A stretch of 64,000 bases of DNA, taken from an uncultured Dehalococcoidia bacterium (GTDB lineage: Bacteria > Chloroflexota > Dehalococcoidia > Lucifugimonadales > UBA3495). The translations under genes were made by a program, and so were the position numbers. The stretch is from positions 2,353,158-2,417,157 of the forward strand of contig OX638345.1 in NCBI GenBank assembly GCA_951813535.1, read 5' to 3'. Shown here piece by piece: positions 19,424 through 23,650 of this stretch (its first letter is position 1; each line of letters starts with the position of its first letter). Below the pieces are notes generated by a model. It made no database searches. It had not been told where the DNA came from and saw only the letters and a list, made by a program, of their open reading frames with translations.

Positions 19424-19657
19424 CCACCCACATCGGTCGGGCTGAAATTGGTGTAGCTAAGTGCCTATCCGAGTCACCAGCGGAAACGTGCGGTCCCATT
19501 GCGGGAAGCCAGGTCAGCGTTGCGGTCAATCTGGGGTGATGACCAAGTCGAAATCCCCCAACCCGTCGCGACAAAAGCGCGCTGTCCCGGCGCCCTAGCC
19601 TCGCGCCCGCTCCGGCTTGCTGGAAAATCGGAAGACCCCGGCGGCCGGTCTAATCGC

Positions 19658-19685: not shown

Positions 19686-19725
19686 TGCGGCTGCGACAAC
19701 GCACAGGCGTTGTTCCTTCTTGCCC

Positions 19726-20595
19726 ATGCGGTGCCCCGCTTGCCAAATCGACGCTGTGTACGGAGCTGCTTTCTGCAACCACTGCGGAGTTCCGATGCCG
19801 GTGCCCTGTCAGCATTGCACGGCTACCAATCCCCCTCAAAGCAATTTCTGCCATCGCTGCGGCGCCACCCTGTCCTCTGCGGACGGCGCACCGGGTCAGT
19901 CCGCGTCCGGCACATTGGAGCCGACCTTTCGCGACGTTGCCGCTGACTTCAAAATCCTGGCCGTCGACGTTACCCGTTATTCCGCTCCCAGAATCAAGAC
20001 TGGAGCAATCTTTGCGGCCCGGGTCACCCGGCGTTCCGCAATATACGGCGCTTCCGGCATCAGAACGGTTGGCGCCGCCATCGCTAAACGCGCGAACCGG
20101 CCCAAGCCATCGCCTGATCAATCAGTCCCAAAACAGGATCCGCCGCTGGCCGCTCCGTCGCCACCGGCCGCCACGACGCTTCTTCGCTATAGCCGAACGG
20201 CTCAACCACTCAGGGCTGCGTCTCGCCATGCATCTGCCCCGGCACGGATTCTGGGAAACCCCGTACAGCCGCGCCCCGGCACGCGTGCAAGCGAATTCAC
20301 GGCACATCGCTTCGACCGATTCGCGCTCAGGCTTCGCCTGGCCCGATTGAAGCTAGTCATGGCATTAACGATCGTTGAATGTCGGCTAGTTTGTAGTTAT
20401 ATTGGGAACACTTACGGGGCGATTGAACTCGACGGCGCTTCGACCGTTCGTGCCCAGCGATGGGTCCTCATTATCTGCTTCGCGCAGCACCATTCCGTAG
20501 TGCGCGCACTACGAAACGGTTCTGCTCGATCCTGCGGCTGCAGCCGCAGCCTTCTGGAATTGCCTCGTAAGTTATCTGCACTGACCATCGAATGA
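19726..20595 (+). CDS. double zinc-ribbon protein, possibly truncated
   Basis: The first 45 residues form two zinc ribbons: MRCPACQ...FCNHCG and CQHCTATNPPQSNFCHRCG, each with four cysteines. Such double ribbons usually head regulatory proteins, for instance class III adenylate cyclases, kinases or large ATPases in related genomes. The rest (about residues 65-200) is basic, Ala/Pro-rich and unrecognised. The last part of the frame overlaps the low-GC retron promoter and RNA (from about 20375), so it is probably not meaningful. I suspect the N-terminal remains of a longer gene cut by the island. No good ribosome site precedes the ATG, although a promoter is close. Confidence 0.4.
   Translation: MRCPACQIDAVYGAAFCNHCGVPMPVPCQHCTATNPPQSNFCHRCGATLSSADGAPGQSASGTLEPTFRDVAADFKILAVDVTRYSAPRIKTGAIFAARVTRRSAIYGASGIRTVGAAIAKRANRPKPSPDQSVPKQDPPLAAPSPPAATTLLRYSRTAQPLRAASRHASAPARILGNPVQPRPGTRASEFTAHRFDRFALRLRLARLKLVMALTIVECRLVCSYIGNTYGAIELDGASTVRAQRWVLIICFAQHHSVVRALRNGSARSCGCSRSLLELPRKLSALTIE
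20375..20403 (+). promoter_or_regulatory. promoter of the retron-like RNA
   Basis: TTGAAT (20375-20380) and TATATT (20398-20403) are separated by 17 bases. Transcription would begin at about 20410, exactly where the structured RNA begins with its left inverted repeat. Confidence 0.6.
20410..20572 (+). ncRNA. retron-like msr-msd RNA
   Basis: The ends are complementary: ACTTACGGGGCGATT (20410-20424) pairs with AATTGCCTCGTAAGT (20558-20572), 13 Watson-Crick and two G-U pairs, like the a1/a2 repeats of retrons. Inside are several hairpins: about 20429-20449 with an eight-base loop; CCCA-GCGA-TGGG at 20453-20464; CTGC / GCAG at 20475-20487; a long hairpin around the 18-base palindrome at 20496-20513, extended by flanking ACC...GGT; and an 18-base perfect palindrome at 20532-20549. 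The last two would form the reverse-transcribed msd part. The RNA ends 51 bases before the reverse transcriptase start. A standard branching AGC after a1 was not identified. Confidence 0.72.
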
Positions 20596-20623
20596 GGAAG
20601 ACAAGTGTCAGGAGGGTTTAACG

Positions 20624-21697
20624 TTGCGCAACGACAGTCGTTTGCTACGGCCCCAATGGACGGGGATACGCCGATCAGATTTCCTCGCTGACTTTAGGGC
20701 ACTACAATCGTTGCCAGATCTCGCTGAGTTTCTGGATGTCGCGCCAACCCAACTCTATCACTACGCGTACCGAATCGATAAAAGCTGTGCGTACTCTACG
20801 TTCGAGGTTCCGCGCCGCAACGGGGGCATGAGGCGTATTGACGCTCCAGCGCGAACCCTAAAATTTATACAGCGGCTATTGCATGAATCGCTAAGCCGTG
20901 TCTACCGCCCTCACCGGGCCGCCCATGGATTTGTGGTTGACCGGTCCATTGTGACCAACGCGAGGCAACATGTGGGACGGCGGTACGTCCTCAACATCGA
21001 TCTTGCGGACTTTTTCCCAAGCATCACTCGAAAGCGCATTTACCGTTGTCTGATGGACGAACCGTACCGGTTAAACAGGAAAGTTGCCAACCTAATCGCT
21101 GCTTTGTCTACTAACGCATTTGCTCGACTGCCTCAGGGCAGCCCATCGTCGCCAGTTATTGCGAATATTGTGGCGCATAAACTTGATTCAGAGTTAGCGA
21201 GAATGTGCGGAGAACAGAGGTGCCGATACACGAGATACGCGGACGACATCACAATCTCGACGGCACGCAACGAACTGTCTCCGGGGCTAGCTAGATATCC
21301 GAATGCCCAAGGGACGGGCCAAGTCATCCTTGGAGATGTCCTGACCGACGTGATCGAACGCAACGGATTTCGGATCAATCACCAAAAGAGCCGCATGTAT
21401 AGCCACTGGACGCGTCAAACTTGTACCGGACTTGTGGTCAACGGAAAACAACCATCGCCTAGTCGCACGTACATTCGCCGTTTGCGATCATTGGTCGATC
21501 ATTGGAATAAGCACGGTTGGGAAGACGCTGCTCAAGCGTTACACGAGAACGAGAACCGCATCCTGTTTGATGATCGAGAAAGATTGCTGAACCACGTCAG
21601 AGGCAGAATCGGGTTCGTGAAAATGGTGCGTGGTCAAAACGACCCTGTGTGCCAACGCCTGGAACAAGTCCTGGACGCCCTGCCGGAAACCCATTAG
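20624..21697 (+). CDS. retron-type reverse transcriptase
   Basis: This 357-residue RT would copy the upstream RNA into multicopy single-stranded DNA. The TTG start is supported by GGAGG eight bases upstream. Retron features are clear: HGFVVDRSIVTNARQHVGR contains NAxxH (residues 112-116), followed by YVLNIDLADFFPSI (catalytic Asp). RLPQGSPSSPVIANIV is at 169-183 and the YADD catalytic box at 205-208 (RYTRYADDITIS). A CTGLVVN segment at 267-273 stands at the position of the retron VTG motif. Base composition is lower in GC than neighbours, suggesting transfer. It is followed after 41 bases by an FRG-domain gene. A group II intron RT is unlikely, as there is no maturase or endonuclease domain. 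Confidence 0.88.
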   Translation: MRNDSRLLRPQWTGIRRSDFLADFRALQSLPDLAEFLDVAPTQLYHYAYRIDKSCAYSTFEVPRRNGGMRRIDAPARTLKFIQRLLHESLSRVYRPHRAAHGFVVDRSIVTNARQHVGRRYVLNIDLADFFPSITRKRIYRCLMDEPYRLNRKVANLIAALSTNAFARLPQGSPSSPVIANIVAHKLDSELARMCGEQRCRYTRYADDITISTARNELSPGLARYPNAQGTGQVILGDVLTDVIERNGFRINHQKSRMYSHWTRQTCTGLVVNGKQPSPSRTYIRRLRSLVDHWNKHGWEDAAQALHENENRILFDDRERLLNHVRGRIGFVKMVRGQNDPVCQRLEQVLDALPETH

Positions 21698-21738: not shown

Positions 21739-22716
21739 ATGGCACGTCCCAACAGAAAAAAGATAGTCGGGCATTCCATTCATTTCGCGGAATCCGTGTC
21801 GAAGTTTCTGGATTACCTGCTTCTTAGCGCTCCTCACTGGCAGTCGGCAAAACGAGGTGACATCGCGTTCAGGGGTCAAGCGTGCAGCAATTGGCCTCTA
21901 GATCCCTCAGCGTTTCGGGACAATCAAACGGTTGGTTATGAAGAGGGGGCGCAACAAGGCTTTCTTTCGAAAGTTGCCGGCCAGGCGCAAGCCGAGTTCA
22001 ACGCGGTTCACCAATTTGTGGTGGCAGCCGACACAGCCGGGTTACCCATTACCGAAACCGGTGCTCGTTTATTATTGCAAGAAAACCCTCGTCACATTTT
22101 TGACGACCCCAATTGGCAATACCGTTGGCCCAATGACGAAATCGTGGAGATACTGGCTCTTGCCCAACACCACGGGGTGCCCACTAGGCTATTGGACTTC
22201 ACCGAAGATCCCTGGGTGGCGGCGTATTTTGCTGGTAGTTCAGCGTGGGAAACAGGTCCGTTACCGGAGGCAGAGGGCGCGACCCCCCCTTTATCGGTTT
22301 GGGCTATTGATCTTCGATTCGTTCGGGCCGTTGGCGGCATATCCCACCGCTATCCGGAACGCATTGCCGAAGTTCGTGTACCGAGGGCAAACAACTCTTA
22401 CCTGAACGCTCAGTTTGGATTTTTCCTGATGGATCGAGGTGCAAACGACGTCATGGCTCGCGGGGAACCATTGTCGATTGATCGGACCGTAGTGTCTCGA
22501 GCTTCTTTCTGGAGTACGGGAAGAAGACTCGCCAAATATAGGATTGAACCCAATTGGTTCGACAATGTTCCAGTGAGGCAAGTTAATCTACCAGCGCATT
22601 TGGCGGCTGATCTCCTCATGGAATTGGCCAATCGTGGAATTACCAAAGGAAGTTTGATGCCAAATCTGGACCGTATAGTGGAGTCGCTGGAACTGCAAAG
22701 GGCACTAGCGACGTGA
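21739..22716 (+). CDS. FRG-domain protein, probable retron effector
   Basis: A 325-residue protein with the FRG domain: GDIAFRGQACSNWPLDPSAF (residues 40-59) and LAQHHGVPTRLLDFTEDPWVAAYFA (141-165). The domain is named for the Phe-Arg-Gly triplet; its biochemical activity is not established, but it recurs in mobile and defence-related loci. Start ATG 21739 is 41 bases after the RT stop; the ribosome site is weak, and an upstream in-frame start at 21649 would overlap the RT end. No membrane segments are visible. Its position directly after an RT and structured RNA suggests it is the toxin or effector arm. That role is inference. Confidence 0.8.
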   Translation: MARPNRKKIVGHSIHFAESVSKFLDYLLLSAPHWQSAKRGDIAFRGQACSNWPLDPSAFRDNQTVGYEEGAQQGFLSKVAGQAQAEFNAVHQFVVAADTAGLPITETGARLLLQENPRHIFDDPNWQYRWPNDEIVEILALAQHHGVPTRLLDFTEDPWVAAYFAGSSAWETGPLPEAEGATPPLSVWAIDLRFVRAVGGISHRYPERIAEVRVPRANNSYLNAQFGFFLMDRGANDVMARGEPLSIDRTVVSRASFWSTGRRLAKYRIEPNWFDNVPVRQVNLPAHLAADLLMELANRGITKGSLMPNLDRIVESLELQRALAT

Positions 22717-23361
22717 TCAACTTCCGGAAAGGCGGTTCAAGCCTCAGTGTCAAGATGCCGCCGCTGTAGCATCCTGATCACATCCGCATTGCTATGGACG
22801 ACCCACTTCCAGTGGCCAATGCTAGGCTGCTGTAGTCGTCCACTCTTGCTTAGACCCGGGTCCGCGCGAACTAGCCGATGACCACGATGAACTGGACCAC
22901 GACCCGTGTGTAGCCAGAGATGGTAACCAGATGCTGGGCCTAGTGGCATCCGTGCTGGCTTAGAGCGACTGAATTGACGACGCTGACGTGCCGAGCACCA
23001 GCGGTACAATTGGCGCCATCCACTGCCGTGAGCCGCACGTCCACCACCGACCCACCCCAATCGTCCAGGAACACATGCGCGTTGCAGCTCAGTCGCGGCG
23101 CCTCCGCTCGGCCCTTTCTGGTAAATCCTTGGTCCGGATCCCTATCAGGCCAGCAGGCAAGGTCGCTCCGACCGTTCTACCGTGATACCCCGCAACCCTC
23201 GCGACATTCGACGCACCGCGAACCCGTGCTATCATCCGGTCCACGGCCCGCAGATGCCGGACCGACCGGATCCTCCATGACCACCCTCGCCGACCCAGAC
23301 CGGCCGGACCGGCGACCGCCTCGCCCCCGGCGCGGAACAACCCGAGTCCCGGTGGGCAACA

Positions 23362-23450
23362 ATCGACACCCTTAAAACAGGGGGTTGAGACCCCTAAAAT
23401 GGGGGGCGAGAAGCCAAAAACACCCCATCGAGAAGCCATTTTAGATCGTG
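23362..23450. repeat. direct repeat, copy 1
   Basis: Copy 1 of an imperfect 89-base repeat starting ATCGACACCC and ending at a CGTG. It contains small hairpins of the form CCC(T)TAAAACAGGGG and a CACCCCATCGAGAA core identical in both copies except the last bases. Confidence 0.8.
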
Positions 23451-23560
23451 AGGTTTGCAGGATATTAGTCCCCCGGGCCGGCATTCAAACTCCCGCGGAC
23501 CCGGTTACAGCAATCTTTGAGCAAAGCCGGGCTTGGCAATCTGGCTGTCGGCGTCTCAAA

Positions 23561-23650
23561 ATCGACACCCCTAAAACAGGGGGTTGAGACCCCTGAAACG
23601 GGGGTTCGAGCCCCTCGAAACACCCCATCGAGAATCCCTTTTGGAACGTG
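23561..23650. repeat. direct repeat, copy 2
   Basis: Copy 2 lies 199-200 bases after copy 1, with one inserted base and scattered substitutions. It has CCCCTAAAACAGGGG, CCCCTGAAACGGGG and the shared CACCCCATCGAGAA core. It is about 280 bases upstream of the DUF255 gene. Confidence 0.8.

Follow-up and report, generated by a model that had tools for sequence, protein, structure and literature searches.

The 64,000-nucleotide (nt) stretch of DNA analysed here (the window, positions 2,353,158 to 2,417,157 of the forward strand of contig OX638345.1, assembly GCA_951813535.1, from an uncultured Dehalococcoidia bacterium) carries a locus in which a promoter-like sequence is followed by a highly structured RNA region, a stand-alone reverse transcriptase (RT) gene and a gene for an FRG-domain protein (Table 1). 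An earlier reading of the letters, made without database searches (the sequence-only reading), had proposed window positions 20410–20572 as a candidate msr-msd RNA, and our analysis supports that proposal, since the RNA, its conservation, its covariation and its exclusive linkage to this RT were all observed. We estimate a probability of about 0.88 that 20410–20572 is the msr-msd RNA of a retron whose partner is the FRG protein. The locus as a whole is best read as a complete retron composed of one promoter, the msr-msd RNA, a retron RT and an FRG-family effector gene.

Table 1. Features of the putative retron locus (window coordinates; aa, amino acids; SL, stem-loop)
Feature	Coordinates	Strand	Basis or remarks
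Sigma-70-like promoter, TTGAAT-17-TATATT	20375..20403	+	Sole promoter-like match in 20300-20700
a1 repeat (outer stem, 5' arm), ACTTACGGGGCGATT	20410..20424	+	15 pairs with a2
Candidate priming (branch) guanosine	20425	+	Directly 3' of a1, invariant in 5/5 loci
msr SL1, CGACGGCG CTT CGACCGTTCG	20430..20450	+	8 pairs, 95% of cells paired, 2 pairs changed on both sides
msr SL2, GCCCA GCGA TGGGT	20452..20465	+	5 pairs, 88% of cells paired, zero both-side changes
Predicted msd template, hairpins 20477-20530 and palindrome 20532-20549	20466..20557	+	Fold and inverted repeats; boundaries drawn from retron anatomy
a2 repeat (outer stem, 3' arm), AATTGCCTCGTAAGT	20558..20572	+	15 pairs with a1
Ribosome binding site AGGAGG	20610..20615	+	8 nt ahead of the TTG start, read from sequence
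Retron RT, 357 aa, stand-alone	20624..21697	+	RVT_1 6.8e-21; PADLOC retron RT models 1e-107
FRG-domain protein, 325 aa, presumed effector	21739..22716	+	Pfam FRG PF08867 2.7e-17; PADLOC PDC-S15 1.2e-27

The individual elements that had been read from the letters proved accurate. The a1 and a2 repeats pair at 15 positions, two of them as G-U pairs; the promoter hexamers lie at 20375–20380 and 20398–20403, and a1 begins 7 nt past the second of them; and both 18-base palindromes (CGTAGTGCGCGCACTACG at 20496–20513 and CTGCGGCTGCAGCCGCAG at 20532–20549) are exact. The promoter is the one sigma-70-like match found where 0.2 would be expected by chance. Taken by itself, the a1/a2 stem is modestly above chance, scoring 34 where 30 mononucleotide shuffles of the 260 bases that precede the RT gene averaged 22.7 and reached at most 32; because it barely beats the best of these shuffles, sequence alone would not settle the identity of the RNA. 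The entire RNA folds at −73.2 kcal/mol (z = −4.65), a value equalled by none of 200 shuffles. A search of Rfam with the RNA returned no family above threshold, and the weak microRNA matches that it gave reflect no more than the simple hairpin at 20477–20532.

With the RT as query, four more close copies came to light, all from the window's own family of SAR202-type Chloroflexota; their RTs are 63% (L002), 57% (L037), 58% (L038) and 56% (L003) identical to that of the window; L038 is identical to L039, from a SAR202 cluster bin. Together with the window these make five loci from four genomes, one of which (G457) has two different copies, and they share the order promoter-like stretch, a1, two short hairpins, a variable hairpin region, a2, RT and FRG-domain gene. 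A TATAxT-like −10 hexamer is visible by eye 8–11 nt 5' of TACGG in L002, L003 and L037 and is less clear in L038. All four further homologues have, upstream of the RT, the paired ends and the two msr hairpins whose absence the sequence-only reading had named as grounds for refutation, and all five RNAs have folding z values between −3.6 and −5.6. The outer stem is 12–17 base pairs long in the five loci, inside the range of about 8–30 bases for the complementary ends of retron RNAs, and contains compensatory changes; in the five-sequence alignment used for covariation it forms a 16-pair helix in which 96% of the cells are paired and four pairs have changed on both sides (for example, U-A to G-C at its inner end and C-G to U-A in its interior). 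Over the complete structure, standard pairs occupy 94.3% of the alignment cells, which none of 500 shuffles reached, and six pairs show changes on both sides, which 7 of the 500 shuffles matched; shifting the partners by 1–3 columns lowers the paired cells to 31–46%. Covariance modelling, the check that the sequence-only reading had itself suggested, recovers the window RNA at exactly 20410–20572 (E = 4.3e-10) from a model built with the other four sequences. With the same layout and compensatory changes in four further loci and this leave-one-out match, the a1/a2 stem is far beyond chance. In a scan of 50 genomes of the family the RNA was confined to the four with this RT, five copies for five RTs; when the model was extended to 93 loci around less related RTs it gave no convincing match (best E = 4.8), and a single-protein scan of genome contigs and scans of viral contigs gave no matches.

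The same alignment bears on the idea that this stretch is simply the coding 3' part of an open reading frame (19720–20595) with incidental hairpins. That frame, which has an N-terminal double zinc ribbon, does remain open through the whole retron RNA, but its zinc-ribbon match is limited to residues 5–48, and the genes upstream of the RNA differ among the homologues, yet the RNA persists among them with paired changes. We consider coding with incidental hairpins scarcely credible as an explanation; the frame itself is probably truncated or read-through sequence.

Within the putative msr-msd RNA, the two msr stem-loops are conserved, and a long msd hairpin is predicted in most of the loci, though its sequence is not conserved. 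The sequence-only reading had found no typical branch guanosine motif, and it was correct in that the AGC context is absent; however, an invariant candidate, G20425, stands directly after a1. Its context in the different loci is TTGA, TTGT or TGGA, and it faces a conserved (T/C)TGG that precedes a2. Characterised retrons prime from a G that is either inside the stem or immediately past it, most often in an AGC context, from which variants occur (PMC6868368), and from its position G20425 is probably the missing branch guanosine.

The RT begins at a TTG codon that aligns with the ATG of its homologues. Its best PADLOC models are those of retron types XI, XII and I-C, and its best solved relatives in the PDB (by sequence) are retron RTs, among them Ec67 (1e-44). 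The YADD motif at residues 205–208 and the NAxxH motif of region X (NARQH, residues 112–116) are invariant in the homologues. An RNA that templates a defence-associated RT (DRT/Abi-type), or that belongs to a group II-like element, without a 2'-5' branch, would account for the unusual priming context that lacks AGC and for the RT's weak matches to DRT and group II models. This is very improbable in our view, since those matches trail the ones to retron models and solved retron structures by tens of orders of magnitude, all 32 aligned RTs share an invariant NAxxH, which is a mark of retrons, and an a1/a2 stem combined with msr hairpins is how retrons are laid out (PMC6868368). A tree that includes 28 relatives places the FRG-linked RTs in one clade with 100/100 support on a long branch, and this clade sits among RTs that match retron types XI, XII and I-C; its deeper placement is not settled by the tree. 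The protein ends at the RT domain, and Pfam gives RVT_1 only, with no fused protease or TIR.

Two arrangements among the related RTs deserve mention. Downstream of each of eight cyanobacterial stand-alone RTs (L041, L042, L044, L047, L050, L053, L056 and L057) is an uncharacterised protein of ~180–310 aa, possibly another retron effector. At L101 (3917–4558) a stand-alone related RT is followed by a separate gene that by eye resembles a trypsin-type protease, an arrangement like the type XI fusion divided over two genes.

The FRG gene begins 41 bases past the RT gene, and its product, which has conserved RGQ and TRLLDFTED motifs, scores 63.9 bits against the PF08867 profile (cut-off 25). FRG homologues also occur without a nearby RT: the two plasmid neighbourhoods inspected have no RT within ~4 kb. 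In addition, a retron operon has been reported in which an independent defence system stands in place of the usual effector (PMC12548924), so the FRG gene could be a passenger in a defence island, with the RT and RNA acting alone or with another partner. Against this, each of the five loci has an FRG gene as the next gene after the RT, even where RT identity falls to 56%, and the other FRG proteins are themselves 56–62% identical to that of the window, which argues that the RT and FRG genes have diverged as a pair. Because it repeatedly follows RTs that differ by up to 44%, we regard the FRG protein as a real part of the system and the passenger explanation as unlikely. The FRG domain has been assigned to the ADP-ribosyltransferase (ART) superfamily, and a role as antiviral effector and possibly as NADase has been proposed for it (PMC9503650); no solved relative of the window's FRG protein was found. 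Our PADLOC-DB search turned up no FRG effector for retrons (the FRG protein matched PDC-S15 only), and the searchable literature gave no retron and FRG together, although such a pair may be listed in the main retron classification (NAR 2020).

Several observations weigh against the retron interpretation or its effector assignment. The VTG triplet that opens region Y is replaced by CTG at residues 267–269 of the window RT (T268 and G269 are invariant), and the priming G is outside an AGC context; validated retrons include V-to-I and T-to-H variants of VTG (PMC6868368). There are five loci only, all within one bacterial family, and the RT gene of L003 (1486–2556) carries an in-frame TAA stop near residue 89, with an RNA and FRG gene that look intact, which indicates either a decayed copy or a sequence error. 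Finally, the FRG fold model, made from a two-sequence alignment, is unusable (predicted local distance difference test score 36), and for this reason the ART fold and the enzymatic role are taken from the literature. Nonetheless, by every available sequence test except the exact VTG triplet the locus is a retron.

The surroundings of the locus were compared with those in G001, the nearest sister genome and a member of the same genus, in which the interval between flanks that match window positions 19584 and 23174 has no retron. At the same site that genome has an OLD-like AAA ATPase/TOPRIM pair (L155:2190–4165), split over two overlapping frames, and the site looks like an exchange point, or hot spot, for defence genes. 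Downstream of the FRG gene the window has a 45-nt direct repeat (23361–23405 and 23560–23604, 93% identical and 199 nt apart) that is built from short inverted GGGG/CCCC units and is also present in G001.

How does the locus compare with retrons that have been described? Retron-Eco2 (Ec67, type I-C RT-Toprim) is the best solved RT relative and has the same RNA-then-RT order and, like the window, a variant priming context, CAGA (PMC6868368); it differs in that its effector is a fused Toprim, and the window RNA matches no Rfam family. Types XI (RT-protease) and XII (RT-TIR) have the closest PADLOC-DB models to the window RT (E about 1e-107), related fused RTs (L045, L048, L051 and L052) have an a1/a2-like stem upstream, and the TIR of type XII is also an NAD+-consuming domain family (NAD+, nicotinamide adenine dinucleotide). 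The window locus is nonetheless not type XI or XII, because it has no fused protease or TIR; its RT is stand-alone and its effector is a separate FRG gene without a TIR or trypsin domain. Retron-Eco1 (Ec86, type II-A) is likewise tripartite with a separate effector, but its RT is more distant from the window RT (3e-26) and its effector is of another family than FRG, being nucleoside deoxyribosyltransferase-like. The Retron-Eco1 complex is reported to form NAD+-hydrolysing filaments (Carabias 2024, as cited in PMC12548924). The window effector, for its part, matches the PADLOC candidate PDC-S15 as well as Pfam FRG; PDC-S15, however, is listed as a stand-alone candidate and not as part of a retron.

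In the general retron scheme, complementary DNA (cDNA) is made from a guanosine 2'-OH beside a1/a2, and a complex of RT, RNA and multicopy single-stranded DNA (msDNA) restrains a toxic effector until infection (PMC6868368, PMC8989520, PMC12548924). Beyond the anatomy of the RNA and genes we infer the further steps here, namely msDNA synthesis, the branch site, effector restraint, defence and NADase activity, as follows. The RNA would fold through a1/a2, and the RT would bind the msr hairpins and prime cDNA at the 2'-OH of G20425. Copying of the msd would run from about G20557 leftwards, in the direction of the msr hairpins, and yield a branched msDNA, ~80–90 nt long, that carries two hairpins. 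If the locus works like known tripartite retrons, the RT-msDNA complex would keep the FRG protein inactive, with msDNA as the sensor and the FRG protein as the effector; a phage that disturbs the msDNA would thereby release the FRG protein and the cell would be stopped, most likely through NAD+ consumption or ADP-ribosylation of a target. We think it probable that the locus has a role in anti-phage defence, and the chance that its FRG protein consumes NAD+ appears evenly balanced.

The locus may represent a retron type outside the 13 described, a proposal for which we put the odds at about even, with a stand-alone RT, its own RNA family and an msDNA-restrained FRG (ART-superfamily) effector, seen to date in a single family of SAR202-type Chloroflexota; it would then be another independent link between a retron and NAD+ or ADP-ribose chemistry. 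The locus would add a new effector family to the retrons and a defence cassette to a mostly uncultured group of bacteria, and as a defined three-part system it would make FRG function, which is so far predicted, directly testable. If the FRG protein does consume NAD+, this retron would join Retron-Eco1 and the TIR retrons, and together they would suggest NAD+ depletion as a recurrent endpoint of retron immunity.
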